Below, piece by piece: positions 1 through 64,000 of a DNA stretch of 64,000 nt (positions within the stretch are counted from its first letter, which is position 1; each line of letters starts with the position of its first letter). The DNA is from Styela clava. Lineage: Eukaryota > Chordata > Ascidiacea > Stolidobranchia > Styelidae. A program made the translations under genes and the position numbers. The notes beneath the pieces are model-generated. The model saw only the letters and a list, made by a program, of their open reading frames with translations. It did no database searches and was not told where the DNA came from. Where the stretch lies: contig NC_135250.1 in the NCBI RefSeq assembly GCF_964204865.1, forward strand, positions 20,513,395 through 20,577,394. The letters are read 5' to 3'.

Positions 1-107
1 TTCTATGTCCGGCTCGGTATCATAATACCTCCAAATATTCCATACGCTGTGGATCTATTGTTAGAATAGCGACTAGTTAACAGATCGTCAATTTCCAGTA
101 ACGCCAG

Positions 108-317
108 GGCTATACCAAAAGTAATCAATTTGACTCTGAAAAAGTTCCTTCAAATAATGATAAGCTGACAGCTGCGGCCCGTCGCCGCATTATTGTGTCA
201 CTAAAACTCAATATCAGTCCGTTATATATCTCACACATTCCCCAGAATGAGAATGTCGAAATATTCGAAGCAATACGAGGACATATCATTGATATTAGAG
301 CTAGCCTAGAGATATGA
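108..317 (+). CDS. Possible 3' terminal exon, product not recognised
   Basis: An open frame of about 69 codons runs from a possible AG acceptor at 106-107 to TGA at 315-317. It has no ATG at its start and reads as a plausible soluble peptide, with an Arg-Arg-Arg-Ile-Ile stretch followed by mixed polar and hydrophobic residues. I recognise no family. It may be the last exon of a gene starting before the window, or a retroelement fragment. The only support is the open frame and composition, so confidence is low. Confidence 0.2.
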   Translation, partial: GYTKSNQFDSEKVPSNNDKLTAAARRRIIVSLKLNISPLYISHIPQNENVEIFEAIRGHIIDIRASLEI

Positions 318-916
318 GTTTGGATGCTACATAACTACGATATGGGTAAGTGGGGGTAGTGAGGTATGGTCGACCAAACTAATTTATTTCAGCCTCCTCA
401 GAACTCGAACAATCCTGGCAAAATTACTTACATTGGTCATGCAATTAAAAAATTAACATTTTCTCTCGTTCGTCGTTGGGATGGATGCTCATTTTATTTT
501 TCATTATCCCAGCGTCAATTTGCCAGGCAATTGACAACCTCCCTTCGTGGTAAAATGCATTTTGATTGGTTGGCTGTTTCAATTTGAAACGAGAGTCTTG
601 TACGAAATAAGAAAGAGTTCTAAGATCAAAGACATTTTCCGACATCAACTCATCTCTCAGCGCTTGGGTCGTTCCATTTGCACCTTGCCTGTTTCAGCGT
701 ATAGTTGCGGATACATTCGAACAGCTTTACGGAATACCTGACTTGACCAGTTAATCAATCTCGGATATATTTGAAGAAAACTTAACAATACCACGTATTC
801 ACTTACTACTTGACTTGTTGGAGAAATCGAGCTCAAATACTTTCGAAGACTCAGCAAATCACTGGTAACATAGGCGTAAAATTTTTAAATTGCTTTTAAG
901 TTTTTAGGTCATCACT
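318..916. other. Stretch without a recognisable gene
   Basis: Only short overlapping open frames on both strands, none with a domain or convincing splice context. A possible splice acceptor (TTTTTAG) ends at 907, ten bases before the ATG of the next gene, so that gene may have a 5' exon or leader in or before this stretch. I found no inverted copy of the sequence downstream of 9031 that would mark transposon ends. Confidence 0.4.
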
Positions 917-3900
917 ATGAGAGGATTTCGCACTCGGCCGATCACCTACAGGAGAGGAGTTTCTGGAAAGCAGACTGCGTACCTGAGAGCGGAACTTGAT
1001 GGACGACCAAGACTCTTGCTGCTGTCTGACAGCAATTCACGAAATCTCGTGCTCCCCCGGGTAGGTCGTCTATAAATAAGTAGTAAATAAAATGGTATAA
1101 CCTACCTACAAAAAATTGTAAACAATTAATGATAAAAGCCTAGTTCGATTGTCAGTCATTTACTTGTGTCTGTAACTTCACAGTATGGACAGCTGAAAAG
1201 ATATATAAAGACGTTTAGCTTTCTAGCATCGCGTAATATTTCTCTATAAATGAAGCTAACGAAGCCATGTTGATCCGACTACTGGCCGTTTGGGGACATT
1301 GTTAGATCATAAACGACGTCAGTTGCATAGCACACTGCAAACGTATCCGTGTTCAGGTTTAAGATATGAAGCGCATTTGAAAATCCTCATTTGTTGCTTA
1401 TTAATTTACAGGTAGTCGTTCCCTCTGTTTCCTGCCCGTTCTCATTTTCTGTCATCTGCTTGCCGGGTGGGACAATGAGACACGGTGTTGCGGAATTGAG
1501 GAATACTACGCCTTTCCCATCTGTTGATTACCTGGTAATCGCTCTTGGGACGAACGACGTCGCCAGCTACCAAGAAAGTGAGAAGAACTTTTCTTCTTAC
1601 TTTCACGGGCGTGCCATAGAGATTATCGATGAGTGTAAACGTGTTTACCCGGGTTCCAAGGTAAGACGATTTTCATTATCAGCTATCAGCATTAGCCAAA
1701 ATTGTTTTTAGTCTCGTTATAATTATTAAATTTGAAAGATTTTTGATTTCCTTCTCATAAGACCATGACATTGACATTGCTTAGTTGAATGATACATTGC
1801 TTTATGCGCGAAACGTATTTCTATCAAAAAAAAATGTAGTCTTAAGTGAAGTATTTCTAAGTGAATATTGATTATCAACCCAATTTGTAGACAAATTTGA
1901 GATGTCTGTTAGATGCTAGCATAGTTGCATAACTTATATATATATAAATATTTGTAGGTTAGGCCGTCTAAAAGACGGCATTCGAAAATTCTCTTATCGT
2001 GACTCAAAACTTTTTTTGCATTGCGTCTCCCTTCCCCCTTAAACTTTTAAAAACGAAATTTAAGGGAATTATCATATATTTTATATATATATAATATATA
2101 TATATTACAATTTTATAGTTTTCGTAGATTATACCCGAATTCTTACATGTTTTTACAATTTATCATCCAATCTATCGCAACTTAATCGGGTATTTTCGCT
2201 AGCAGAATTCAATTGTTTTGAATAATACATTATTACAGTGAAATAAACAAAATATGTTATCATAATATCACAAACTCCTATGTATTCTAATCGAATAACG
2301 ATACGTCTGCAGAAAAACCTATAATCCATGTAATAAAAGTGTTCGCCGCCCATCTTAGTATGTGACAAAGTTATAAAGCAATTGAAGGTGCAATTAATTA
2401 CAATTTTTCAATAAACCTTCAGTAAAAATCAGGGCGCTCCCGAAGTATTCGTACCAAGATGACGCACAACCTGAACCCTAACCTGGTACACACATCGTAT
2501 GTTTAAGTTGTGCGCATACTTCGGGAGCTCCGGAATAAGTGGGTCGACACGCCATCGACCCCCAATTATTTCAAATTATTTCCGACCGCGGATTAACATA
2601 GGCTTTCTAGTAGTTGCACACCAAAAAGTTTTCAAACCAGCTGTTAGGTCATTGTAACGTCATAGGCAGGTATCGGCTTTGCAATACTAAACGTATTGGA
2701 ATTACTCGCGCGTACCAGACTAAAAAAATCGTTTCTCGGGCTGCACACCATTCAAAATTGGCACCTCTCCGCGGGCCACACAATTTTTTCTTGTGGGCCG
2801 CATTTGACTGGTATAAAGGTTAAAATACTGAAAATAAAACGAATAACACTCGTTTTAGGAAGGCCCGCAAAAGATTGAAAACGCTTTTTTTAGAAACTGC
2901 AAATCGCAAAATTTTGTGTGCCTGAAATCTAAACACAGCCAGTGCGCGCCTAATGTATTTTTTCATCCATTCAAAGACTACAAACGAAAACTAATGCGAC
3001 TTCTCTCTGAATATGAATATACTAATATAAATTTCAGATTTTATCGCAGACTTAGAGATTTTGTAACGGTGATATTTTAAAAATGATATGAGAGACAGCA
3101 TTGTGATAAAACAGAGTCAGTGTTGTAAGCATAGCTCAGACTTGTCGGTTTGTAAAATTGCAAAAATAGGGAAAAAAATATATATTCAACCACCCACCCG
3201 ATCGCGGATGGCCATGGTATTTTGAGTTAGTAATTTTTGTTTTTGTCGACGCAACTTCAGATTTAAATAAAAGCAATTAAATAAATAAAGCAAGACATTT
3301 TAACTATGTCCGTATCGGTTATGGATTGGTCATTGCCGAAATTCACTACCGAAGTTATTCAAGCTATACAAGCACACGACTTCATCTATCTTGGTGGTAC
3401 GAAGTGCCGGGTTATCAAAGACTCGCGTAGAGCAAGATAGTGTAGAAATAGACGTACGAGAGTTGCTTTAAATGTTAAATATAATTTTCGGGTAGGGAGA
3501 TTCGTGGTATAGTTCCCGTTTCTGACTAAATTTTGCGCTTTATGTTATCTAATACAGCGTTACAGTACTATTTTTATTTGACACAGTGCCCCGAAACCTA
3601 ACTTTTGTGCATTTTCTGATTTTATTAATCGGGTGTAGGATATCGTTTCAATTTGCAAATGAGTATCGCCGAAAGCGATCATTATGTACACGCCGTGTGC
3701 GATAATATTGTTCACTTTATTGCGGATTTAAGGAACATCCACAGTCGCCTATACATTGTCGTAATAACGCATTTTTTCTCACTGTATGCACTATTTTGCA
3801 AACAAATAAAAAAAGACTGAGCCACTGTTTATGATGTTGTCGAGTTAACTTCAAGTTTGCAATGTAAATGTACGTGGTGGATAGAAATTCACATGATTAG

Positions 3901-6900
3901 TTAGGTTTTGGCTTGAAGTGAAAACGCAATTGCTTTTTATTTAGATATATATATAAGATATATTTTTCTACTGTTTGTTTTTTAAATTATTGCATCAAAA
4001 TATTGATGATAAATACATTTTATATTCAGATTCTGTTGGCGAAAATCTTGCCCCAGGCCGGACGTCACACTCGCGTCCAGGTGGCCAACGTTGTTCTCTC
4101 GGGAATAGCGTCTGATGCGATGTTACCACTGTTGGATCTTGACGTTGGCAAGGATCCGAATTGTTGGAACGGTCGACTTCATCTTTCAGACGTTGGACTT
4201 CAGCAGTATATGGAGACGCTCGAATCATCTGTATCAAATTTGGTGGGTGTATCTAATAACAAAGAAAAATTAATATCCTTTGGATCGTTTGTTACAGATC
4301 GTGGGGAGAGCGACGGAAATGGATGCACGACGTCACAAAAGGCCAGCGGAAGAAAGAGGAGACAGGAGAAAAGTAAGTTAACGGAGCAGGTAACAGTTTT
4401 TAGTAATAACGATGATTTGAGTTTTTCCAGGTTTTCGATGGAGTACGTGATTTCGTCGTCGGAGTCGTACAACGCATCGCGCGTTGTGCTATCAAGAAGA
4501 GAAAGAAGATCCTACGCGCCAAAGAGAAGAAAGGGTAAGGGTAACCACAGTTCACTTTTTAGCAGGACCAAAGAAGAACAGAAGAATGTGGCTGTGTCTG
4601 AATGCAAGCCGACCGAGGAACAGGTAAATAGGACTAGTGCTAAACCTGTTTTTGTGCCAACAGAAAAAAGTCCGCCATGTAAGAAGATGAGAAGAAAGAA
4701 GGAGAAGAAAGCAGAAAAGAAGTCGGCAGTTGAACTGGTAATTAGGCCTAGTGGGAAAGTAACAAACTGTGGTGTATCTAGAGTTTCCAGCATTGCAGCG
4801 TCAGATAGAAGCGGATCATTGGATGTACACGAGAACATTGAAAAGAAGACTGAGGACAAAGAGGAGAAGGCAAGAAGAAAAGAGCAGGAATCTTACGAAG
4901 AAATGTCAAGTGTAAACGTAAAAGTCATATGTAATAGACAGAATTCACATGTTAGAATTTTAAATTCAGGGATTCGTCAACCAGTGGCGACGGAAGAACA
5001 GCGAGCGGCAATAGATGTTTTTACGAAGCTGGATATTCCGACACTACCGATTTCACTAAAGAAAAGAGGAAGGGTTAATCACTTAACGTGCAGGTAATAT
5101 AAAGCAAATACTGTGAAGTTCACGGAAATATTGTGTACTTAGCTATGGACAAAAGACAAATGTTGTAGTAGATGTAAATATTTAGTTAACATGAAATATA
5201 TCTAAAGTTTATCATGTTTTATGTAACAGGAGAACAAACAGTATAGAAGGGGAAGTAAAGTCAAGCACTCCAGTCCGCTTGCTCGGAGGCGGTGGGACAT
5301 ACAAGAAAAATGTGTACACGGCAGAAAATTTTGCAGTATTGATGAATTCGATGGAAAAGTTTGATCCACATGATTACGATTGTTGGTATCGATTAGTTTC
5401 TACATTTTTCACCCCAAACATGTCCAAATATGAAACCAAGCGAAAAATATTGGAAGCAAAAAGATTTTGGCGAGAAAACAAAAAGGAAATACTAAAAATT
5501 TGCGACATGCGATCTTTTAATCGTGATACCAGCGCTAAATGCAATAATAATGCGGCCGAACAAAATATCAGAAAATCCAAGACCGGTCAATTCGCTTCTC
5601 CTGGCGAAAATTTAACTGGGCAATTTAAATGTAAATACGATTGTAAATATTCCAGATTGATTTGCCAAAAATATAAATACAGAAGTAAATATAAATACAA
5701 ATATAGACCGCATAAACGCCCGGCGTCAAACCGTTCGCCGTCGGAAAAGGACTGCTCCCGCATTTCCGATAATTTTAATTACGATTCCGCCCGTCCCATT
5801 GGTGAATCCGAAAGTCCGCTGCTCGAAAAGCGCGTTCAAAAAGATAGCAAAACTTCTGATAACAACATTGAAAATGTCATCTCCATAGATCACAAGTTAC
5901 ACACCGTTCACGATGAATTTGAAAACCCAAATATTTCTCCCCAGCAAAATCATGAACCAGTTTTGGATGCAAGTTCCTGTCCAAATTATAAGCAATCGTC
6001 TCCTCAACGCGATGACGTTACATTCGATCTTGAAATGACCAAATCAAATGCCAATGACGAGCAAAAGCAAGAAAACGCACCCGAACATCCCGATTCTTCA
6101 CAAGTCAAAGAACGGCATGTGGAATCTACAACTCAGGCATGGATACCCATTGAGGATTTGCCTAACAAGGCTGAGTTTATAGTTAAAGAAGATGACTGGA
6201 ATGCCATTTTGTGCTCTGTCAAAAACAGAATAATTCTTTACAAAGACTGGGGGGATAAAATAAGAGATGGCATGAAATTAAGCAATCCTTATTGCTCATT
6301 TGCGTTTCGTCGCCATACTTTTAACAAACAACGACAGCGGTCGCGTGTATTTCACACTACTGGATATTGTCGTTTTCCTAATTGTGATAGGAAGTTTACG
6401 ATAACTTCTTATCGTGTCAATTCTCGTTTGATGCATGTGTCTTATACCGGCAATGTAAAACACTCAACAATTGTATCTGCTATTTTAAAAGGCGCTCGTC
6501 GTGAAATGGTTAAAAAAGAGCTCAAAAACAAGATGCCTCGTGAATGTTACCTGGACTTTATTAAAGAGGTTCCTAGCAATATCTTTTGTTCTGGTAATCG
6601 AGACGATGCCCCATCTGTCAGTGTTTTAAAGAAGGCTAGATACGAGGCCCGAGGTATAGCGAAGTTAGACTCGGATCAGTGGGAATCGCTTGAGCGTTTG
6701 CGTTATCAGCAAAGAAAAAATAACAATGACCCATCAAGGAAGGTGTTGGGAACATTGCAGCAAATATCGCGTGTGCCTGCTAGTATTATGCTGTGGTCTC
6801 GTGATACCATAGATATTTTACAGGACGTCGCGAGAGAGGACATAATATATATAGACGCCACTGGTAGTATATTGCGAAGCTTTAAAGATAAAAGGCCATT

Positions 6901-9031
6901 TTATATATATGAAATTGTCGTCCGACATCCCATGGAAGGCAAACCCCCATTGGCTGTTGCGTCATACGTCACGAACGAACATAATTCGACCTCCATTTCC
7001 AATTTTATTGCACGATTCCGGAGAGATCATGCGTTGTGCTACACCAGACCGTCAGGACGTTTGATAATATGCGACGGCAGTGTCGCTCTTATAAATTCCG
7101 TGTTGATTTCATTCATGGGAGAAGGTTCCGTTGAATATATATCTCGTTGTTATAAAGTTGTAACGGGCATTGCCACAGATTGCATGTTCCAAAAACCGTT
7201 CTTGAGACTTTGCGCCAGCCACATTATGAAAAATTTCAGTAAACTGTTCTCGGCATTGAACTGGAAAAAGGAAGCCATGCATATCATGGGATTATTAATC
7301 GCTTCCGAAAATTACACCGAAATTAAGGATTTCATTTATAATATCTACGTTATTTTGATGTCAACGAATTTTCACTTGGCTGACAGAAGTTGGCAGTTTT
7401 TCAAAGGGAAAATTACCGACAATTCTGAAGATTCTCCCGTATCAGAAAATACTGATGATTTTGAAATAAACGACTGGTCCCCGAACTGTAACCCATTTGA
7501 AAATGACATTTCTGAAATAATTAGAAAAGCGGGCTCGGAAATAAAAAACGCCAAACTTGATAATGCCAATCCATTTTACAACCCGAATATAATGTTGACG
7601 CTTCGCAAGTATTATTTTCCCAAGATCGTGTTGTGGACTAGCCTTATGACGGGAGATTTGGGTCGCCATGGAAATTCTCCGCCGTATGAAAAACAAACTG
7701 AGCTCTACCAGAAATTACAAAAATTGGCCACTCAAAATTTAACTATACGAAATCGCACGCAAGGAATAATGGAGAAAAGTCAACAGGAACTCAAACGAAC
7801 ACGACTACGAAATAGAAAATTTTCCCGTCTGGACGAAATTGCGACGGTTTATGACGACTTGCATAATGCCTTGATTCGTGAATTTAATGACAATAGGATC
7901 GTTAAAAAATCGGTTAAACGCAAAAGAAAGACACAACAGAAGGCCGAGGACGTGGAAATCTGGGCAAAGAGAACAAAACAAGAGCATGGTAAAAACCCAT
8001 CAATTGGAAAATATATGCAAAGTCCAAATAAGCCTCTAAAAGATATATCTGACATCAAGCCTACCACAAGCCCGATAACATGCTCTGAGAATAAGCAGCA
8101 GGATTTTGCACCTCTGCAGGAATCTACGCCGATCAACACGTATACTCATAAGAGCCTTCCTAAATATGAAGACTGTATTCGAATGCCAGATTCGAATTCT
8201 TTCGTGCCCGCTTTGACCACCCGGTTTACGAAAAATAAGCATGATTTCGAGCGCTTCAATTGTTATGGAAGAAATGAAAAAAGCGGATTAATAAATCCAA
8301 GAAAAAAAATCAACAACGATCAAATAGATAAATGTTCTCTGATACTTGCTGCTCAGTTTCCAGACATAGACGGACTCCAGAGCACCACAATATATGCTTT
8401 ATCTGCAGGACCAGCCTATACACCAAATCTGCCTTTCATTCAAGTTTTACATGTTCACACAAGCACTAAAAACACCTGCCATTGGGTCACAGCATCAAAC
8501 TTTTTTTGCTTAGACGAGCCCGACACCGTATATGTCTACGACAGTTTATTGCAGCCAGACGCATACGATGCAATTGATCGATACAATATTTCAAAATTGC
8601 TGCGGCCGAAAGGAGATGAAATTCGTATAAAATTCCCTAAAGTTCAATCCCAGTTACGAGGTCCTAATTGTGGAGCATTCGCGATTGCGTTTATGGTCGC
8701 TTTATGTCTTAAAACGAAACCCGAAACAATTGAGATAAATGAGTTAACATTGCGTAAGGATATCGCGTCGATGATTGATTGCAAGCGTTTTGCGTCGTTT
8801 TACGATATCACCGGATCGAACTACTTTCACCCGGCCATTTTGAATATTCCAGTTTTTTGCCACTGCAGACTCGCACATTTGAATAATAATTTGATGATTC
8901 AGTGTACGTCGTGCTTTGCGTGGTATCACGAAAATTGTGTTTCAGTTCAGATTCCCACTGAAGCAATAACAAATTTGGACAAATCTTGGAGGTGTGATAA
9001 ATGTCCTTCGCTTCGCAAATTATTGATATAA
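917..9031 (+). CDS. SGNH hydrolase - DDE transposase - Ulp1 (C48) protease - PHD finger fusion, mobile-element type
   Basis: Exons 917-1060, 1412-1660, 4030-5093 and 5230-9031 join in frame (phases 0, 0, 2) into about 1,752 codons. Residues 1-200 look like an SGNH hydrolase: S-D-S-N at 37-40, G-T-N-D at 94-97, H182 in the last block. The usual Asp three residues before that His is not present. Residues 200-480 are a Lys/Arg/Glu-rich linker. Residues about 850-1310 are a transposase core of MULE type: a Cys/His zinc-like patch, D1028 (YIDATG), D1101 (IICDGS), a C-x2-H motif at 1147-1150 and candidate E1306. A C48 protease follows with H1570, D1590, Q1627 and C1633 in correct order. A C-terminal PHD finger spans about 1696-1745. 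Exon 3 and exon 4 could be separate ORFs (TAA at 5095 if unspliced), but the donor, acceptor and phase fit splicing. Family could be KDZ rather than MULE. Whether it is mobile or domesticated is unknown. Confidence 0.7.
2436..2528. repeat. Fold-back (MITE-like) element in intron 2 of the fusion gene
   Basis: GCTCCCGAAGTA at 2436-2447 is the inverse of TACTTCGGGAGC at 2517-2528, and inner arms (GACGCACAAC / GTTGTGCGC) extend the pairing. The same arm recurs as a short hairpin at 60451-60471 and, diverged, in the repeat starting near 37394 (GAAGTATGCGTACCA). It is therefore a dispersed family in this genome. Confidence 0.6.
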
Positions 9032-9176
9032 TTTAACCTTTTCGTCTTTTGTATTTCTAAAACAAATGAAACGTTTTACATAATTTTGAACGCATCAAAT
9101 ATTTAAAGTCATAACCTAGGCATAACACAATCACTTAGTCATACCATAATTAGCTAGTAATATAGATTCTTTAATC
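9032..9176. other. 3' flank of the fusion gene
   Basis: AT-rich sequence after the stop codon. I see no canonical AATAAA and no obvious terminal inverted repeat matching the 5' flank. Confidence 0.4.
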
Positions 9177-9766
9177 ATAATCAGGCTGTGGAGTCGGAGT
9201 ATTGAGTTGGAATCGTAGCTTGGTGTGATTTATTGCTATTGGAGTCAGAGCCCGAATCGCATTTATAGACTCGTAAAATGCCGTGATCGAAATCCTTAAG
9301 CTGGATTAGGGACCAGAATCGGAGTCGACAGTTTATAATATGAAAATTTTGGTTTCTTGTTGTTCGGGGCTGACGGCAAAATCGAAATTTTCATAAACTT
9401 GGAGACGAGATTCGAAGTCATGAAATGACAATTATGGAAGGCTTGTATACGCTAAAGTTTATGTTAATAAAATTTTGATTTTCTTGTTGTTCGGGGCTAA
9501 GGGCGAAATCAAAATTTCAATCTGTAGACGGGAGCCGGAATTGGAGTCATAAAATGACAATTAATGAAAGTTAACATACGCCAAAATTTAAGTTATTAAA
9601 TTGCGGGTTTCTTGTGGTTCCCAGCTAACGACGAAATTGAATTTTTTCTAATCCGGAGTCGAGAGCCAGAATCGGAGTCAAAATTTCTTTATCCTGGTGT
9701 CGGAGTGATATTTTAAATATATCGATGAGGGGTGTTATTATTCCCCGACTCCACAGACCTGATTAT
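9177..9766. mobile_element. Non-autonomous element with GTGGAGTCGG-rich inverted ends
   Basis: The left end ATAATCAGGCTGTGGAGTCG at 9177 matches, inverted, the right end that finishes at 9766, with one inserted base (ATAATCAGGTCTGTGGAGTC). The interior carries diverged internal repeats around GTTGTTCGGGGCT and GGAGTCGGAGT. There is no coding capacity. The GGAGTC motif links it to the minisatellite at 10.7-12.2 kb. Confidence 0.65.
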
Positions 9767-10680
9767 AAATATTATTTTAAATTAATTATTTTTAATAACT
9801 CTTAGTCTATTGCTGTGATTTCCGTAGTCAAACTTACTTTTCACGTTCCGATTATATTCCGTTAACGATTCTGTCTAGCTACTGATATGGCGTTCAAGGC
9901 CATTGCTCTAACAATTCGAATCAGTCGAAAATACAAATTTGCCGTCTTTAACATGAACATCATAAGTTAATATCACTTCTTATTTCAATTATTCTATTAG
10001 AGACGTTTCTGTTCGTAGCACCGAGATGGGGTTTGGTGTTCACACAATTAATTACCCATTGACCAACTTTGAATGACCTACATAATGACCTTCCTATAAA
10101 ATTGACCATCGTAACTGTCGAATACAACAACATTTTTGTCATTGTTCCCTTGTTACTTGGTATTACCTTGGCTCCACAGCTGCATACTTAAATGCATTTT
10201 GTCATTCCATATAATGTGCTTCCATTAAATATCCATGAAAATATTTTTCCCGTGGTGTGCAGATCAACAAATCAATTTCATTGCCAATACAGCTAATATC
10301 CAATAAAATTGAATAAAGAACAAAACAAGTAAATGTAGTCATTTGCAATAGGAATCCTTCACGTCGATTTAAAGTCCCGTGGTTCTGCAGAACTTATCTT
10401 TTAAAATTTTCATGTGCAAGCAAGGCAAGCAGCTCGAATTGTCAATTTTTGTTGTTCAGTTGTCAAATTATTTAAAATTCATCATCACTGTGGCGTCGGA
10501 GTTTGAAATATTGATATTGGTGTCGGATCCTGAATTGTTTTTTTTCCCAATTCCTCGGAATCGGGAAGATGTTTTTTAATTATTTATTAATTTAAAAAAG
10601 TTCGCAGTCGACCAATTGTTTGTTGTCATTGTTAGACAAGAAGTCGAAGTAAAATCTTTTTCAACCTGGTGTCCAGCTCC
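9767..10680. other. AT-rich stretch without a gene
   Basis: Only short chance open frames on both strands and scattered GGAGTC-type remnants towards the right end. Nothing I can name. Confidence 0.4.
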
Positions 10681-10689
10681 CGAGTCGGG

Positions 10690-12185
10690 GGTGAAAATCG
10701 GAATCGTTTGTTAATGGCGCGAATTTTGTAGTTAGAGTCGAAACCCCATTTTGTTAATTCCGGAGCCGGAGTTGCTTCTATACCGTTCTGATTCAGAATT
10801 TACATTCCGTTAATTCCGGAGTCGGGGTCAAATCCGGTGTTATTTCTATAATATTTGGAGTCAGATTCAGAGTCCACATTTTGTTAATTCCGGAGTCGGG
10901 GTCAAATCCGGTGTTGTTTCTATAATATTTGGAGTCAGATTCAGAGTCCACATTTCGTTAATTCAGGAGTCGGAGTCAAAGCCGGAGTTATTTTTATAAA
11001 ATTTGGAGTCAGATTCAGAGTCAAAAATTTCGTTAATTCCGCAGTCGGGATCAAATCCGGTGTTGTTTTTATATTATTTGGAGTCAGATTCAGAGTCCAC
11101 ATTTCGTTAATATCGGAGTCAAAGCCGGCGTTATTTTTATAAAATTTGGAGTCAGATTCAGATTCAAAATTTTGTCAATTCCGGAGTCGGGGTCAAATCC
11201 GATGTTGTTTTTATAATATTTTGGAGTCAGATTCGGAATCCACATTTCGTTAATGTCGGAGTTAAAGCCGGAGTTATTTCTATAATATTTGGAATCAGAT
11301 TCAGAGTCTACATTTCGTTAATTCTGGAGTCGGGATCAAATCCGGTGTTGTTTCTATATTATTTGGAGTCAGATTCGGAGTCCACATTTCGTTAATGTCG
11401 GAGTCAAAGCCGGAGTTATTTTTATAAAATTTGGAGTCAGATTCAGAGTCAAAATTTCGTTAATTCCGGAGTCGGGGTCAAATCCGATGTTGTTTCTATA
11501 ATATTTTGGAGTCAGATTCGGAGTCCACATTTCGTTAATTCCGGTGTCGGAGTCAACGCCGGAGGGATTTCTATAATATTTGGAGTCCGAACCAGAGTCC
11601 ACATTTCGTTAATTCCGGAGTCAGGGTCAGATTCAGAGTTCACATTTCGTTAATGTCGGAGTTAAAGCCGGAGTTATTTCTATAATTTTTGGAGTCAAAT
11701 TCAGAGTCCAAATTTCGTTAATTCCGGAGTCGGGGTCAAATCCGGTGTTGTTTCTATAATACTTGGAGTCAGATTCGGAGTCAACATTTCGTTAATTCCG
11801 GAGTCGGAGTCAAAGCCGGAGTTGTTTCTATAAAATTTAGAGTCAGATTCAGAGTCCACATTTCGTTAATTCCGGAGTCGCGGTCAAATCCGGTGTTGTT
11901 TCTATAATATTTGGAGTCGGGGTCAAATCCGGTGTTGTTTCTTTAATATTTCGAGTCAGATTCCAAGTTCACATTTTGTTAATTCCGAAATCATGGTTGA
12001 AGCCGTAATTGTTTCTATAATATTTGGATTCAGACTCCAAGCTCACATTTTGGGAATTTCAGAATCGTGGCCAAATCCGAAGTCTTTTCTATAAAGACTC
12101 GGTGTATTAGTTGGAGTATTGAATCAGATTCCATTCATTTTCATAATGTCTCGGAGTTCGGATCCAGAGTCGATCGTAAAATTGT
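10690..12185. repeat. Minisatellite, ~74-bp unit, roughly 17-18 copies
   Basis: Tandem units share GTTAATTCCGGAGTC, a GGGTCAAATCCGG segment, TTTCTATAATATTTGGAGTC and AGATTCAGAGTCCACATTTC. Copies alternate between two sub-types (GGGGTCAAATCCGGTGTT and GGAGTCAAAGCCGGAGTT), which suggests higher-order repeat structure. The array decays at its right end with GATCCAGAGTCGATCG near 12150. Open frames inside it are repeat artefacts. Confidence 0.85.
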
Positions 12186-14142
12186 CCACAACCCTGACTA
12201 TAATTCAAAACAATTTATTATATTTCGACGATTTTAAAAACGTAATTTGACATTTTCTAATCATGAAGAAGGCGCTAATTCAAATTTTAGTTTATTCGTT
12301 TCAAGTCTTGTTGAATTACTGAATTGGCATCCTAACCTAATAACATTGGGTTCCTACCCAAACTGTAAAAATAGAAACGATATTTTCGGAATTGGGATCT
12401 GGAATTTTTAGTGACTTGTCGTTTTTAGTTGGTTATGTTTAGATGCTTTATTTATTTACTTTTAACGCATTTGGTTTATTTTATTTATATGAGAAAATTA
12501 TATTTATACAAATTTTTAATATGTATGATTTAGCAATCAATACACATAATATAATTTTGAATATTGATAAATTCACCTTTCTTTTCAAATTTCATTTTGA
12601 GACTATTTTTAAAATGAGAGTATGGCTATGTATATCTGAAACTGTAACTCCAAATAATTTTCTCGAACCAAAATCTGCATACCAAATTTCTGGAGATTGA
12701 TACATGAAAATTGCAATAACGTTATAAATTTCTTTGCCCGGTGTGTTGGAGAGATTTGGTAAGAGTGGAGTTGGGTGATATCTTTGCTGTAATAACGCTA
12801 TGATTGTTTAGTGATTTCTAATTTTTATAGATTTTCATATCAAGACAGTAAAACATATGTTACTGTGCGAAGCACAATTACATATGAAATTGTATAACTG
12901 AATTCACACCACCAATCTGGCGTTAATATGACTGTGGTTATGGAGTATAGCTTGATGTACATTTGGCATGATCAATTATTTTTGTTTCCAACATTGCGGT
13001 GTAAATAACTTTTATAGAAAAGATTTTTACTTACTATTCAAACTTGAACTCGGTCTGATGATGTGTCTTGATGAAAATGAAATTTGGATCAAAAATATTT
13101 CTTACGCTTTGATAATCGACTTTGGGTATTTGACTTATTGCATAATCTTTATATATATTGTAGCGTTATTGCATTGATATCTGCGCCAAATGAGGGCAAT
13201 TAAATTTTGAGATTTTTTTTATAAGTATGATATTGTCTTTTTCTTATCGTGTTGCAATAAATACACTTAGTAAATATTGTTGTATTTGATTTGAATTTCT
13301 TTAACGCGGATGTCACAATTGTTTTGAGAGACTTAAAAAGATCATATGACCAATAGGACTCCTCCTTAAAACTGAATTAGCAAGCGTAATGGGTGCTGGA
13401 ATAGAACCCTTGATTTCGATTATATCAACATTATGTATAGTAGTTTCGTGTTGAACTATGAGAGGTCATTAAAATATTTCAGTGTGAACAGCATTTGCGG
13501 TAGGTTTTAATTGTATGCGCAAATTTATCTGTCTGAATCAGATCAAGTTCGAGCAAATCACTAGAAGATGATCATGATAAGGCCTCGCGAATCCTACAAT
13601 GTCGCATTCGTATCAAGCGCTACATTTTCATTGTTCGGTGACAACAACAAAATTTTGCATTTGGAAGACTGTAAAGTACGAAATCGCTTGAATGATTTCG
13701 AAATATTCGATTTGTTATGAATTGTTAAAAATTACCATCCACGTTGGCTCCCCGATATTGCCTCCTAAAATGACTATTTAAAAGATAATGATAGCAGGGG
13801 TGGTCAACCTTATTTCGACTGAAATCTTCAAGACAGATCGCGATCGATAATAAGGAAATACACATAAACGAATGAGAACTGAATAGGCAGAGAAAACTGC
13901 ACACAGGTATTTGAAAAATTCACCGCTGTCAATAAGCTCATCTCCGTAGGCGCATTCTCAATGCAATCATCCAAAAAATTTGTATTTTTTATTTTTCATT
14001 AAATTTCTTAATTATGTAATTGTACCCTAAGTACATGTTTCATCATTTATTTAAATCATATAAGTCAGATCCAATGCTTGTCAATTTTAGTTGTAAGCGT
14101 TGAAAATTCTTTTAAAAAGATTATCAAGTATCTATCTATTAC
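12186..14142. other. AT-rich stretch without a gene
   Basis: Contains weak remnants of the GGAGT repeat (about 12735-12775 and 12935-12960) and a lone hAT-type terminus CAGGGGTGGTCAACC near 13797. No open frame looks like a protein. Confidence 0.4.
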
Positions 14143-15010
14143 AGCGTTTTCCAACCTTTTTTGGTCGCGGACTATATTAATAACGGCCGGGTGTCCTAAT
14201 TTTAACTTTAAAGTCTTTCCCGACGGTAGAATTGTATTATCCATATATTTTTTAGATGAAATGACATGTAATATGACTATTCAATTTTTTGAGGAACAAA
14301 CCATAGGATCAATTTACAATTAAAATTTAACGTGGAACACTATTACCGCGAAATATTGATAATGGTTGAGTGTGCTAATTTTGACTTTGATTTGAAAGGC
14401 TTTCACGACGGTAGAATTTTTTTATTTTTCAATATTTTTTAGATGAAATACTATGTAATATGACTATTAAATTTTTTGAGGAACAAACCATAGGATCATT
14501 TTCAATTTACAATTAAAATTTGACGTGGAACACCTTTACCGCGAATGTTGATAACGGTTGAGTGTGCTAATTTTGACTTTAATTTTAAATTCTTTCCCGA
14601 CGGTAGAATTTTTTTATTTTCTGATATTTTTGAGATGAATTACAATGTAATATGACTATTCAATTTTTTGAGGAACAAACCATAGGATCATTTCCAATTT
14701 ACAATAGAAATTTGACGTAGAACACCATTACCGTGAAATATTGATAACGGTCGAGTGTGCTAATTTTGACTTTAATTTTAAAGTCTTTCCCGACGGTAAA
14801 ATTTTTTTATTTTTCAATATATCTTAGATGAAATACTATGTAATGAGACTATTCAATTTTTTAAGGAACAAACCATAGGATCATTTTCAATTTACAATTG
14901 AAATTTGACGTTGAACACCATTACCGCGAAATATTAATAACGGTCGAGTGTGCTAATTTTGATTTTAAATTTGAAGTCTTTCTCTACGGTAAAATTTTTT
15001 GAAATTTGTA
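14143..15010. repeat. ~190-bp tandem array starting at a hAT-like terminus
   Basis: Four to five units share GAGGAACAAACCATAGGATC, found near 14291, 14478, 14670 and 14863 (spacing about 187-193 bp), together with CTTTCCCGACGGTA and GACGTGGAACACC. The left edge CAGCGTTTTCCAACC resembles a hAT terminus. I did not find a matching right terminus, so this may be one end of a larger element with internal amplification. Confidence 0.8.
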
Positions 15011-15497
15011 AGATCATATACTGTATATTATGATAATTTAATTCCGTGGTAAACATTTCGTTGATTTCTTTTCGATGAACTGTTGAATTTCGACATCAAA
15101 AGCCTTCGAGACAATGTGTATCTGCTGGTGAAATGTTTTCATCATGTTTATTTTTTATTATACAAGATGTATTTGTGCAAATCAATTATGGTTTATTCAT
15201 AACTACATTTTTTTTTCATAAAAAGAACAGACACTTAGCTTAAATTTCAATTTTCCTATTTTTGAGTTTCGACGGTCAATTTCAGGCTTGTTTACCGTCA
15301 TATCTGGTAACACTGGTTAGAGATATTATTGTTCAGTTGATTTTGAATCATTTTCCCGGCATTTGTGGCCATTTTGTGCTATCAATTGCGGGACTCTGAG
15401 AGGTTCTGGTGCTGAGGTAAACGTGGATATATGTAATTTAGTAATCTGTGAGCGTTTAGGATGCCTTAACTTACCGTATAACACTGTCAGAACGCCA
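15011..15497. other. Stretch without a gene
   Basis: AT-rich and unremarkable. It leads into the phased array upstream of TBC1D24. Confidence 0.35.
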
Positions 15498-15593
15498 GCC
15501 CACACTCGTGTGACGCTAGCCCACACTCGTAGGATGCCAGCCCACACTCGTGTGACGCTAGCCCACACTCGTGAGACGCTAGCCCACACTCGT
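15498..15593 (+). repeat. Five direct copies of GCCCACACTCGT at exact 21-bp spacing
   Basis: The 12-mer starts at 15498, 15519, 15540, 15561 and 15582, always 21 bp apart. The intervening 9 bases are also similar (GTGACGCTA type). Two inverted 10-mers GAGTGTGGGC follow at 15752-15761 and 15767-15776. The array ends about 580 bp before the TBC1D24 start codon. Long open frames on both strands here are consequences of the multiple-of-three period. Confidence 0.9.
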
Positions 15594-16132
15594 TTTTGAC
15601 AGGCCATACTAGGGGTAACTGGTCCGTGCTTGGTATTGCATTTGCGCTGTGTATATCCAATATGGTCTCTATATTGTCATAGCCACCAAGTTTTTATGTA
15701 TTAACGTTTATAAAGTGGTAAAATAGTTGGTTAACCCCTTGACGTCAGGCTGAGTGTGGGCTGAGCGAGTGTGGGCTGGGGTAACTTTGGTTATTATGAT
15801 TGATTCTGCTGTGATGCAATTGCTGTATTTTTATTGCATTTATGTCTGAATCAATCGTGTGATCAATACAGTAATCTAGTCGAGTGCAGTAGACCTACAT
15901 TACTCTTATCAGGAGTGCTTGACATTTTGATTTTATCGACCTAGGCCTATTGCAGTATTGATTAGTTGTAAAACATATGTAGCCTATCTACAGATCTACT
16001 AAATAAAATGCTCCACAGATATAGCCTACTATTTTTTGAAATTTTGTAGCAGTGTGAGGAGACCATCTTTAAAAAAAATTGCAATCTTGCATCAGTTTCT
16101 CTTCAAGAATAATATTCTTTTAACTGTTTCAG

Positions 16133-16175
16133 CAAAATGACTAAGTAAAATAATAGTAAATAATCTGATATTACC
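16133..16175 (+). promoter_or_regulatory. Likely 5' leader exon of TBC1D24 with a three-codon upstream ORF
   Basis: A good acceptor (TTTAACTGTTTCAG) ends at 16132, so the leader is probably spliced. An upstream ATG at 16137 opens a tiny ORF (M-T-K-stop, 16137-16148) before the main ATG at 16176, which sits in a strong context (ACCATGG). Such uORFs commonly reduce translation; that effect is inferred here. Confidence 0.5.
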
Positions 16176-18083
16176 ATGGAGGCCGGGCTAGATGCTGGAG
16201 GTGACTCTGTAACACCTTACTCAAAATTTGTGGATCGTAGTAAACTTGCTAGCAACTGGAAAGCTCGACCGGCTTCACCATCTACTGTGACGAATGTTGC
16301 TGTTTTACCACTTGGACAAACGAAAAAAAACATTAAAACATTTTTAAGGGAAAGGCTGTTTGCGCCAAATCATGACATAAGGTCTGTTTTGTTTAAAAGT
16401 CTAGCCAAAAGAATTCCGCATAACACTTCAATGTTTTCAGAGCAAATGTATAAAGACTTTATACAAGAATGCTACCCCAAAGTTACTACATACAAAGATG
16501 CGCCGTTACCTAGTTTTGTACTAGAGGATGAAGATTTACCATCTTACTTACTCAATGACCAAGGAAAGCTGGAATTGCGGAAAATACTTGTTTGTATTAA
16601 CCATCATTTTTCACATATAGTGTATTGTCCGATCTTGCCACCGATTGTTGCAATATTACTTCACTATGACGATTCTCCAAGTCAAGTTTTTGCTCATGTT
16701 TGTCATATATTATTTTGTAATGCTAGGCATATGCATTACATTGATCAGAATAAGGCAGATACAGAAGCATCCGCTAGAGTGGTCAAAGAGCTTGTGCGTC
16801 GTTTTGCGCCAACTTCACATAAAACGCTGGTGAACTTTACAACAAATCCTGATGATATATACAGCCAATGGTTACGAGTCATCTTCCATGGATTACCCTT
16901 TGCATATCTGGTGATTTTATTTGACATGTATCTCATTGAAGGTTACAAAGCACTCTTTCGAGCTGCGATTGCCGTTTTAAAATTTTACAAAAAGGTTGGC
17001 TTGTCTAATCCATCAGATATTCTAAGTGCTGTGTTTGGCTTTGTTCAATCAATTGATACAAAAGTCAGTACAAACTTGCTGTTCAGAAAAGCATATTCAA
17101 TCAAGTTGCCGACAACGAAAGAGCTTAGAAAATTACACCAAAAGCAGCTTTCTGTGTTACGCCAGCTCCCAATTGCAGACACTAGTCGAAGATCATCCCA
17201 AGAGCGTACTCCTTGGAGATATATATTCTTTGTTCGAAATGTAAATTCTGATATCGTTGATGAAACCTTGTTCTCCAAATTATATTGTTGGCTCCCAGAA
17301 AGAATTTCAATTCTCAGGCCCACGCTTTTATTTTCTACCAACAAAGATGGGTATAGTTTGGAAGCATTCTTCCGAGCTTCTGACGAAAGAACACCATCAA
17401 TACTTTTGATTAAAACTACAGAAGGCTCTGTCCTGGGCGCTTATCTAACAGCTGATTGGACTGAAAGGAAAACTGATCCAAATGCATATTTCGGCACCGG
17501 AGAAACATTTCTTTTCACTCTATCCCCAGAATATAAAAAATATAACTGGGTTGGATTGAGATCGGGAGAATCAAGTATTTCAAATTTACAAAGCTCGAAT
17601 GGAAGAAATAGCTTATGTAGTTCTGTAGCTTCTGGAATGAAGTCGCTCCCACCAGATGCTGCCAGAAGCAGTAGAGGGATCACTTTGCCTCCTATACGTC
17701 ATGATGGTGCTTCACCTTCTTTGGCCAGTGTAACCAAAGATAGCAGAGAAAGTTCTGTTGTTCTTCCACCTCTGGTCATCAGCCCCGTTTCACAAGAATC
17801 AATCCCTTCTTTTTCATCATCTACAATCAATGAATCATCAAGTCGGGCAAAAATTATGCAAAAAACATCAAACGAAAAGATGGCCAAAACGTCATCTGAT
17901 CTGTTTATGTTTGCTGATAGCAGAGGAATAGTTGTGGGGGGAGGAAATGGCTATGGATTATTTATAGATTCTTCTTTTCTAAATTGTACAACAGAACCTT
18001 GTGATACTTTTGAAAACAAACCACTTGTCAAAGGAGGAAGTTTTCAGTGTTCCCATGTTGAGCTTTTTGGTTTTACAGATTAA
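16176..18083 (+). CDS. TBC1D24: TBC1 domain family member 24 (TBC-TLDc protein)
   Basis: 635 codons in one exon. In animals the protein (Skywalker in fly) acts on membranes in vesicle traffic, with a TBC domain thought to act on Rab or ARF6 and a TLDc domain linked to oxidative-stress protection. The TBC part covers about residues 50-330, with conserved blocks such as YCPILPP, VILFDMYLIEGYKALFR and AVLKFYKKV. The TLDc part starts near 344 (PWRYIFF) and includes LLIKTTEGSVLGAYL, FGTGETFLF and the C-terminal VVGGGNGYGLFIDSS and ELFGF blocks. Between about 461 and 575 lies a Ser/Pro-rich insertion of about 115 residues, so the protein is longer than the ~560-residue human form. The absence of coding introns is notable because vertebrate orthologues have several. 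The start has a strong context. Identification is confident from block-by-block family resemblance. Confidence 0.95.
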   Translation: MEAGLDAGGDSVTPYSKFVDRSKLASNWKARPASPSTVTNVAVLPLGQTKKNIKTFLRERLFAPNHDIRSVLFKSLAKRIPHNTSMFSEQMYKDFIQECYPKVTTYKDAPLPSFVLEDEDLPSYLLNDQGKLELRKILVCINHHFSHIVYCPILPPIVAILLHYDDSPSQVFAHVCHILFCNARHMHYIDQNKADTEASARVVKELVRRFAPTSHKTLVNFTTNPDDIYSQWLRVIFHGLPFAYLVILFDMYLIEGYKALFRAAIAVLKFYKKVGLSNPSDILSAVFGFVQSIDTKVSTNLLFRKAYSIKLPTTKELRKLHQKQLSVLRQLPIADTSRRSSQERTPWRYIFFVRNVNSDIVDETLFSKLYCWLPERISILRPTLLFSTNKDGYSLEAFFRASDERTPSILLIKTTEGSVLGAYLTADWTERKTDPNAYFGTGETFLFTLSPEYKKYNWVGLRSGESSISNLQSSNGRNSLCSSVASGMKSLPPDAARSSRGITLPPIRHDGASPSLASVTKDSRESSVVLPPLVISPVSQESIPSFSSSTINESSSRAKIMQKTSNEKMAKTSSDLFMFADSRGIVVGGGNGYGLFIDSSFLNCTTEPCDTFENKPLVKGGSFQCSHVELFGFTD

Positions 18084-24268: not shown

Positions 24269-25441
24269 CAGTGGTGTCAAACTCAAGGGTTTTTGAGAGC
24301 CGCATTGCATTTTGGAAATTGTAAAAAGGGCCAAAAACACTTTTTGATAATGTATACTTGAAAGATATTTTTCAGATAGTTTTAGTTTGTGACATATATT
24401 GTGATGCAACTAAACAGTTGGATTAAGTTTTATTATTTTCTTTAATTTCAAATGCAATTACATATTAATATTTGCATTCCACTATTATTGCAAGTTACTG
24501 TATTTATTACAAAAAATCATAAAATTCTTTATACAACCATCAAAATCATTTTTGAACAAGCTTTGGATAAGGAAAGAATAATACATACACTAAAAATGAC
24601 TTAATCTAAATACATGGACTTGAAATTAACAAAAATACTACAGTATAAACTCAATGTTTTTTTAATTACATTTGTCCTGACGTTTGGCATCTTTTTTGTG
24701 TCACCAGCATACTAAGGCAAGGCTGAAATGATTTTATAGTACCAACTCTAACTAACGAGGTCACATGATCATGGGTTAATCTGGATCTTTGCGAATGTTT
24801 AATTAATTCCAGTAATGCAAAAAAGTTTCTTTTATCATTTCATGTATAGATCAGTAAAAAAACAAATGACAGATATTTTCGACACGACATTTCGCGCCAC
24901 ATTGCATGGCATAGGATTGCTTGAATTATTATTGATATTAATTTTTAGTAACTAATTCGTTGTATATTTATATTAATATACAAACACATGGTAATTTTCT
25001 GTTCGAAGTTGGTCTTCGAAATTGTCATATTGACTGCTGAGCTTATTGTGTTTTTTTATTGTACTGATGAAAATATGACAAATTGAACAATGTGCTTCAA
25101 AATTTTGTGAAATGCAGAAATATTGCAACTCCCATTTTCTTCGAAAATGCCACCTTCTTCATGTACTTTGCGTTCAATTTATTCACTCAAGTGTTTTATT
25201 CAAGTATTCTTTTGCTAGCTTGATGTGTATTCTTAATTGGGTCAAAATGTGAACAAAAAAATTAATTTTCCAAAACTACTTTCAGTAAATTGCTTTCTGT
25301 GTGAATATTCAATTTCACTTTAAAAGGGTTGAAAAATCTATTACACTTAGATAAAAAAACTCCAAAATACAATTACAATTATTGTTAAGCGTTCGAGGGC
25401 CGCACTGGAAGTTCTCCGGGGCCGCGAGTTTGATATCCCTG
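24269..25441. mobile_element. Nested hAT MITE, ~1.17 kb
   Basis: Starts CAGTGGTGTCAAACTC and ends GAGTTTGATATCCCTG, which are inverted repeats. Flanks GAATAGAT and GTCTAGAT match at 6 of 8 positions. A second copy of this MITE in the opposite orientation begins at 63345 and runs out of the window with the same outer flank. Confidence 0.75.
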
Positions 25442-26730
25442 GTCTAGATTGAAGTTGTTCTAAATATAAAACAGTATTTTATCATGAATCATGATTATAC
25501 CCTTTCCTGAATTTCTTCTTTAGTAGGCCTACTACCAAAAGTTGATGAATCAAATATAACACAGGTGTAGTGAGTGACCCATAATCCTCATTTTCCAAAG
25601 CTGTTTTAAGTATGTCTGGCATGTTTTGTGCCTTTTTACGAATAAGACCGCTTATGCAATCTTACGCTTTGGAATTTTTAGTTATTTTCCTCAAGCCCTG
25701 CAGGATGTAGGGGCCATACACAACTCTACCGGAGGGTCAAATGTCTTTGCATGTCTCCATAGGTTGTTCTTCTATTGCAAACATTTATGGAGTATTCTGA
25801 TTGTATTTCATGGAATCACACTGTCACTGATATGTCGCCAGACTTCTGATATCTCCCCTTCTGCTACAGTTGTCCTGTGAATAAATAATAGGAAATTGAG
25901 GTTGGACGAATAGTTGAAAGTTTTGCTTTATGTCGGCTTAATTACTTGATTGATATACTTTCTATTTTTGCTATTGCCTCTTGTGCTGCAGGTCCCACAA
26001 TGCTTAGACAGGTTTTCCCACAACTTTTACATCTAAAGAAAGAGAGGAGATTTAATAATGTTCGTTAAGAATAAATAAAGCAGTCTATATGATTTAGATT
26101 GGAAAAGCTAATAAATCCAATATCTCGTGTTTTATGTAAAAAATGTTTTACTGAATTTGGTATATAAACCAACTAATAAAGGGGTTTAGTCAGAAAATTA
26201 CTATACAATATAGACCGGTATGAGTGAAATGTTAGGTGAACTTGTTAACCCTTTGATTCAATACGCAAATAAAAGTGAATGAGCAATAGTATGTTACAGC
26301 AATGAGTATATATCCTCACTGATTAAAAATAATCTAATTGGAGGTGCATGAACTATTTGAAACCGTAAGGGGTATGCAATTTCGGCAAATGGACAACTAC
26401 GTACCGTACTGATTTAATAACTTCGTAGTATTTGACAAAAGCTGGCTTTCCCACATGTACTTAACAGTGCAATGCCCGGGTGTGATATACAACAATAGTA
26501 TTTACCTTACTTTTTTCCGATTTCTTTTTACCTTCAATTTTCCAATATATCATTAAAATCGACAACAACTGTCAAAGCAGGAACGAACACCATTCGTGCT
26601 ATGCCTTGAAAGCAGCACACATCCGCTCGTTTTCGTCTCGTCAAGTATGTGCATTGGAGCGTACTATCGGATACGATCTTCGGCCAAAAATGCCTGAGTT
26701 GCGCATCATGTTGTTTAATGTCATTGGTTA
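25442..26730. repeat. Inverted-duplicated segment, copy 1
   Basis: This sequence is present in reverse orientation at about 62003-63344, including the segment around 25690-25870 and the block at 26560-26720. Open frames here on the plus strand, and on the minus strand of copy 2, are conserved only because the DNA is duplicated. The opposite strand holds peptide-like fragments such as LSKHCETPAAQKAIAK (copy 2), so a decayed coding exon of a transposon is possible. Confidence 0.75.
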
Positions 26731-62002: not shown

Positions 62003-64000
62003 TCAATGACATTAACAACATGATGGCAACTCCGGCATTTTTGGCCGAAGATCGTATCCGATAGCACGCTCCAATTCACATACTTGGCGAGACGAAAACG
62101 AGCGGATGTGTGCTGCTTTCAAGGCATAGCACGAATGGTGTTCGTGCATGATTTGACAGTTGTTGTCGATTTTATTGATATTTCGGAAAGTAGAGGTAAA
62201 AAGAAATCGGAAAAGGTAAGGTAAATACTATTGTTGTATATCACACCCGGGCATCGCACTGTTAAGTACATGTGGGAAAGCCAGCCTTTGTCAAATACTA
62301 CGAAGTTATTAATTCAGTACGGTACGTAAGTTGCCCATTTGCCGAAATTGCTTATTTACTTACCCCTTATGGTTTCAAATAGTTCATGCACCTCCATTTA
62401 GATTTTTTTAATCAGTTCGATATATACTCAACTCATTGCTGATCATTGTAACATACTATTGCGCATTCACTTTTATTTGCGTATTGAATCAAAGTGTTAA
62501 CAAGTTCACCTAACATTTCATTCATACCGGTCTATATTGTATAGTCTGATCTCTCAAGTATTTGGAGCCACGAATGCTTGTAATTTTCTGACTGAACCCT
62601 TTTATTAGTTGGTTTATATACCAAATTCAGTAAAACATTTTTTACCTAAAACATGACATATTGGATTTATTAGCTTTTCCATTCTAAATCATATAGACTG
62701 CTTTATTTATTCCTAACGAAAATTAATAAATCTCCTCTCTTTCTTCAGATGTGAAAGTTGTGGACAAACCTGTCTAAGCATTGTGAGACTCCTGCAGCAC
62801 AAAAGGCAATAGCAAAAATAGTAAGTATATCAATCAAGAAATTAAGCCGACATAAAGCAAAACTTTCAACTATTCGTCTAATCTCAATTTCCTATAATTT
62901 ATTCACAGGACAACTATAGCGGAAGGGGAGATATCAGAAGTTTGGCGACATATCAGTGACAGTGTGATTCCAAGAAATATAATTAGAGTACTCCATAAAT
63001 GTTTGCAATAGAAAAACAACCTATGGAGGCATGCAAAGACATTTGACACGCCGGTAGAGTTGTGTATGGCCCCCACGCCCCACATCCTGCAGGGCTTGAG
63101 GAAAATAACTGAAAATTCCAAAGCGTGAGATTGCATAAGCGGTCTTATTTGTAAAAAGGCACAAAACACGCCGGACATACTTAAAACAGTTTTAGAAAAT
63201 GAGGATTACGGGTAACTCACTCCACCTGTGTTATATTTGGTTCATCAACTTTTGGTAGTACTATAGAAGAAATTCCGGAAAGGGTATAATCATCATTCAT
63301 GATAAAATACTGTTATATATATTTTGGACAACTTCAATCTAGACCAGGGTTGTCAAACTCGCGGCCCCAGAGAACTTCCAGTGCGGCCCTCGAACGCTTT
63401 ACAATAATTGTAATAGTATTTTGGAAGTTTTTATTTTTTATCTAAATGTAATTAATTTTTCAAACCTTTTAAAGTGAAATTGATTATTCACACAGAAAAC
63501 AATTTACTGAAAGTAGTTTTGGAATATTAATTTTTTTTTTGTCCCCATTTTGACCCAATTAAGAATACACATCAAGCTAGCAAAAGAATACTTGAATAAA
63601 GCACTTGAGTGATTAAATTAATAGCAAAGTACATGAAGAAGGTGGCATTTTCGAAGAAAATGGGAGTTGCAATATTTCTACATTTCACAAAATTCTGAAG
63701 CACATTGTTTAATTTGTCATATTTCCATCAATACAATGAAAGACACAATAAGCTCAGCAGTCAATATGACAAATTCGAAGACTAACTTCGAACAGAAAAT
63801 TTCCATGTGTTTGTGTATTAATATAATTATACAACGACTTAGTTACTAAAAATCAATATCAATAATAATTCAAGCAATCCTATGCCACGCAATGTGCTGC
63901 GAAATGTCTTGTCGAAAAAATCTGTCATTTGTTTTTTTACTGATCTATGCATGAAATGATAAAAGTAACTTTTTTGCATTACTGGAATTAATTAAACATT
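62003..64000. repeat. Inverted-duplicated segment, copy 2 (runs off the window)
   Basis: Reverse-complement relative of about 24.6-26.73 kb. Landmarks include CAATGACATTAACAACATGATG (62005), the TGTTGTATATCACACCCGGGC block (62235), GTCTAAGCATTG (62771) and the nested MITE end CAGGGTTGTCAAACTCGCG (63345). Pairs over more than 1.9 kb with copy 1 in inverted orientation 36 kb away. Confidence 0.8.

Follow-up and report, generated by a model that had tools for sequence, protein, structure and literature searches.

A large Rehavkus-like DNA transposon in Styela clava whose predicted gene joins an SGNH-type domain to a putative transposase

The window analysed here, a stretch of 64,000 nucleotides from Styela clava, opens within what is, judged from its sequence, a large, recently moved DNA transposon. 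The best explanation for the locus, and one that we consider probable, is a 25.26-kb autonomous-looking element that works like Rehavkus and carries a single spliced gene; its product would have an SGNH-type domain at the N-terminus, followed by a basic linker, a DDE-type transposase, a C48 protease and, last, a PHD finger. The features on which this reading is based are as follows (window positions, with strand).

1..15791 (+): window part of the transposon of 25,259 bp, with paired terminal inverted repeats (TIRs) and the target site duplication (TSD) TATTATGAT; the left 9.47 kb lie upstream, in L009
917..1060 (+): exon 1, open, with a GT donor and SDSN; identical in the C13 and C3 copies
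1412..1660 (+): exon 2, with PGG and GTND; the PF13472 match starts here; identical in the C13 and C3 copies
4030..5093 (+): exon 3, the C-terminal half of the SGNH part with LHLSD (~4030-4284), then the basic linker; the PF13472 match runs across the junction
5094..5229 (+): intron 3, skipping the TAA at 5095-5097; both ends kept in the C16 copy
5230..9031 (+): exon 4, with the putative transposase, C48 protease and PHD finger, within a 1278-codon open frame (5195-9031)
6725..7800 (+): putative DDE region, with IDATG (~6851), ICD (~7067), CASH (~7211) and GIMEKSQ (~7770)
8474..8806 (+): C48 (Ulp1-type) protease region; PF02902 E=0.0012, below the cut-off
8858..9004 (+): PHD finger; PF00628 E=1.9e-5
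10717..12112 (+): 74-bp minisatellite between the gene and the right end
14174..15000 (-): 193-bp satellite, ~4 units, on the inner side of the inverted right end
14924..15791 (-): outer right TIR, 866/868 identical to the left one
15792..15800 (+): TSD TATTATGAT; the same 9 bases stand left of the left end

Results

Inverted ends and target site duplications

The left end of the element was located in 10 kb of added upstream sequence (L009), and the paired TIRs place the whole element at positions 20503927-20529185 of contig C1. The outer TIR match of 868 bp continues into satellite sequence to ~1.6 kb, and the 193-bp satellite is present in both inverted ends, with ~41.5 units on the left and ~4 on the right. 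As the left array (L009 1324-9275) has ~10x more units than the right array (window 14201-15000), the two may change length independently. The window element is flanked by a perfect 9-bp TSD, TATTATGAT. When nine TIR pairs were examined (accounting for 18 of the 30 TIR loci, with the C10 pair represented by the outer of two abutting ends), a TSD of 8 bp was seen in five, one of 9 bp in two (the window and C16 pairs) and none in the remaining two; mismatched TIR pairings, used as a control, gave a maximum of 4 bp among 72.

The same ends also flank shorter TIR pairs, which may be nonautonomous derivatives, on C13 (L055/L056, 9677603-9681243), C9 (L058/L049, 22201746-22204692) and C16 (L057/L048, 12725329-12736382), the C9 pair having no TSD. 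The right end of the C13 copy adjoins another TIR-like stretch (L043 and C13 240825-241213), and that pair likewise has no TSD. A TBC-TLDc gene frame (16164-18083) starts ~370 bp past the right end of the element and is followed by PIG-V-like and animal peroxidase frames. An inverted repeat pair at 62004-64000 and 24794-26726 (~2 kb, 90% identical) is possibly another mobile element.

Copies elsewhere in the genome

The exon-4 protein has at least 49 matches in the genome, a lower bound since 36 of 238 candidates were scored. Two copies, on C13 and C3, are near-identical; in these, exons 1 and 2 are 100% identical to those of the window and exon 3 shows 99% amino acid identity. In the C16 copy exon 4 is 87% alike and open, exon 3 has an 8-bp deletion, and satellite stands where exons 1 and 2 would be, to ~15 bases before L013. 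Satellite adjoins window position 4847 in the C10 and C2 copies, and the SGNH part is therefore gone from them. The match to the element begins at 4541 in four C18 copies, and the flanks examined there contained neither an SGNH part nor satellite. A sister group at ~46% identity carries both C48 and PHD, but the two sister ORFs scanned (L022 and L023) gave no Pfam match for SGNH.

A four-exon gene model

The earlier note had proposed four exons linked by three GT..AG introns of phases 0, 0 and 2, and we were able to reproduce this model, the joined exons giving 1752 codons plus a stop, with no internal stop. The 1278-codon frame that contains exon 4 is far above chance, as 200 simulated sequences of 14 kb held no stop-free run above 187. 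The join between exons 3 and 4 (5093/5230), said to bypass the TAA, is indeed open and in frame with the long exon-4 frame. The C16 copy retains the acceptor of exon 3 as well as the donor and acceptor of intron 3, the interior of which has insertions of 1, 84, 8, 23 and 2 bases; the exon-4 stretch upstream of the first ATG aligns with this copy without gaps. Adding exon 3 raises the SGNH profile score from 18.2 bits, for the exon-2 frame alone, to 32.5 bits, a gain that favours the 1660/4030 junction. The 1060/1412 junction and exon 1 are predictions, exons 1 and 2 having been seen in three near-identical copies only. We infer from the exon model that one fused SGNH-transposase-C48-PHD protein would be made. 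The order of domains given in the earlier note also holds, with the SGNH domain graded as likely and the transposase as putative.

A different explanation is that the locus gives two products, namely an SGNH-linker protein ending at the TAA when intron 3 is retained, and a transposase-C48-PHD protein starting at an exon-4 ATG such as that at 5342. This would account for the C16 copy, in which exon 3 is broken yet exon 4 is open and constrained, and is consistent with the SGNH-less copies and with the presence of the same GTAATATAA at the end of exon 3 in all four loci tested (L011, L012, L014 and L016). However, it is the ends of intron 3 and not its interior that have been kept, and the gap-free alignment upstream of the first ATG in exon 4 also counts against two products. 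We consider two products unlikely and favour the single spliced gene.

The SGNH-type domain and its conservation

An SGNH fold in the N-terminal residues had been anticipated, and the profile search agrees: PF13472 matched the spliced SGNH part with E=1.5e-7, yet the score of 32.5 bits is 0.4 bits below the curated cut-off of 32.9. When the PDB was searched with the SGNH part by phmmer, nothing matched at E<=10. Read by eye, SDSN, PGG, GTND and LHLS are candidate S, G, N and H blocks. We take SDSN in exon 1, which stands outside the PF13472 match, as a putative block I, and PGG and GTND, both in exon 2, as putative blocks II and III; the GDS motif is altered to SDS and the usual Asp of DxxH is not in place. 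An SGNH-type domain is likely at the N-terminus.

Over the 84 codons of exon 3 that make up its SGNH half, comparison with the 87% alike C16 copy gave a dN/dS of 0.27 (NG86; bootstrap 0.09-0.64), based on 14 synonymous and 13 nonsynonymous differences in this one pair of copies; of 2000 bootstrap replicates, 0.2% reached 1 or more. The next 95 codons of exon 3 gave 0.91 (NG86), and a longer exon-3 stretch (amino acids 131-314) gave 0.48 by NG86 and 0.63 by YN00. For exon 4, dN/dS against the same copy was 0.29 (NG86). These figures cover exons 3 and 4, exons 1 and 2 being seen in three near-identical copies only. The low dN/dS in the SGNH half, along with the kept exon-3 acceptor and intron-3 ends, points to past selection acting jointly on the SGNH part and the transposase, as read from one pair of copies.

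It might be argued instead that the element picked up the SGNH exons as passenger DNA and that they play no part in movement. Pack-MULEs of plants bear gene fragments (PMC6431247), some copies of the present element have no SGNH part, and its GDS and DxxH motifs are altered, all of which would agree with a passenger. Against this stands the constraint over the 84 codons, as measured in the single pair, and we regard the passenger explanation as improbable.

Transposase, C48 and PHD regions

The assignment of the central region as a transposase stood as far as its motifs, and fell short of a profile match. In an alignment of nine family members, several of them partial, IDATG is found in 8/9, ICD and CxSH in 9/9 and GIMEKSQ in 6/9, and we read these four as the D, D, CxxH and E of a transposase. 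Among the nine members no DDE transposase profile matched at E<=10 (the search filters drop most weak matches), the KDZ transposase and Gypsy-type integrase core profiles each matched 0/9, and the MULE transposase profile gave no match. A PDB profile search returned chance-level matches only, and a single-sequence model of the DDE region had a pLDDT of 41.5 and was unusable. The putative transposase identity rests on the motifs, the element ends and the copies.

The PHD finger named in the earlier note passed the Pfam cut-off (PF00628, 25.0 bits against a cut-off of 24), and it matches PHF2 with E=3.5e-6. The Ulp1 protease scores above the PF02902 cut-off in the two sister ORFs scanned (25.6 and 26.1 bits), while in the window gene the isolated piece reached 19.2 bits against a cut-off of 20.7. 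C48 was absent from the Pfam matches at E<=1 for the whole exon-4 frame, the locus was not among the 38 places found when the genome itself was searched with PF02902, and against the PDB the region had SENP8 as its sole match (E=1.2). The C48 assignment is therefore supported in the sister ORFs and weakly in the window gene.

Discussion

Relationship to known transposons

As described in PMC6446971 and PMC10218199, Rehavkus (Rehavkus-1_TC and Rehavkus-1_HR) shares with the window copy a PHD finger, one gene and satellite in inverted ends, and its 9-bp TSD recurs in two of the nine TIR pairs here, that of the window copy among them; a minisatellite before the 3' end is reported for the group (PMC6446971), and the satellite in the inverted termini of Rehavkus-1_TC has a unit of 164 bp (PMC10218199). 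There are also differences from these accounts. Rehavkus-1_TC is 9.5 kb long compared with 25 kb here, the outer TIR match of 868 bp is outside the 26-400 bp reported for Rehavkus (PMC6446971), the other copies here mostly have 8-bp rather than 9-bp TSDs, an SGNH domain is present here, and the reported Rehavkus hosts are arthropods and annelids. Long TIRs and TSDs within 8-11 bp are shared with the MULE superfamily. A 2026 survey of arthropod MULEs uses Rehavkus as outgroup (PMC13359780), and the evidence for chordate MULEs is described as limited, with one sequence from Ciona (PMC6446971). The element is Rehavkus-like in its working; we refrain from assigning it to Rehavkus or MULE, because its TIR is too long for the one and no transposase profile matched.

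We also weighed a place in KDZ/Zisupton or Ginger1 instead of one near Rehavkus. The 8-bp TSDs of five of the nine TIR pairs are as in Zisupton (PMC12730594), and Ginger1-9_HM has both Ulp1 and PHD (PMC2836005). However, neither KDZ nor integrase was among the two families matched for the nine members, although MULE failed too, and satellite in the inverted ends suits Rehavkus. KDZ, which the earlier note had raised, and Ginger both lack profile support; Rehavkus is a better fit than KDZ to the PHD finger and to inverted ends that hold satellite, and placement in either of the other two groups seems doubtful to us. Among the viral contigs searched one stretch fits a pattern, and no relative was confirmed. 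The other origin raised, a recently assembled host gene, is not supported, given the TIRs, the TSD and the two other places where near-identical copies share exons 1 and 2, and in the face of these a domesticated gene made of transposon parts, for all its long open frame with introns, is scarcely credible.

The unusual part of the gene is the SGNH domain. The earlier note knew of no single protein that combines SGNH, DDE, C48 and PHD, and our search of full-text literature, which left Repbase and most subscription papers outside, found no SGNH-transposase fusion. The pairing of Ulp1 with PHD is, on the other hand, already known in Ginger1 and Mutator transposases, where the two are C-terminal as in the window gene (PMC2836005); that account describes no SGNH domain in them, and the Ginger core is a Gypsy-type integrase. 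SGNH domains have themselves been reported in retrotransposons (PMC3905857), Helitrons (PMC4021074) and Terminons (PMC6431247). The L2/CR1-type ORF1 esterase of ZfL2-1 is an SGNH-type esterase in a mobile element, but belongs to a retrotransposon ORF1 described without a transposase (PMC3905857), and the window SGNH part had no phmmer match in the PDB. Likewise, the Texim genes with fish Helitrons and the GDSL ORFs of rotifer Terminons are SGNH/GDSL genes on mobile elements, but are described without joining to a DDE transposase (PMC4021074, PMC6431247).

A possible mode of action

The ends, duplications and copies fit cut-and-paste movement. The transposase would bind the element ends, and perhaps the satellite units, and cut and paste the element, while the PHD finger could tether it to histone tails and the C48 protease could strip SUMO-like modifiers from the transposase itself or from host factors. 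The SGNH domain may derive from a captured esterase of an animal or a retrotransposon, and would aid the process through acyl-group hydrolysis or lipid binding, which is the least certain step. Only tentatively, and with less confidence than we have in the transposon itself, do we propose that the transposase protein bears a selected SGNH esterase and that lipid or acyl chemistry, up to now linked to the ORF1 proteins of retrotransposons, also serves cut-and-paste transposition.

Mobile elements that are unrelated to one another repeatedly carry esterase domains, with no role yet assigned to them. An SGNH domain linked to a transposase, in a genome that has SGNH-less copies beside complete ones, would make that role testable apart from reverse transcription.
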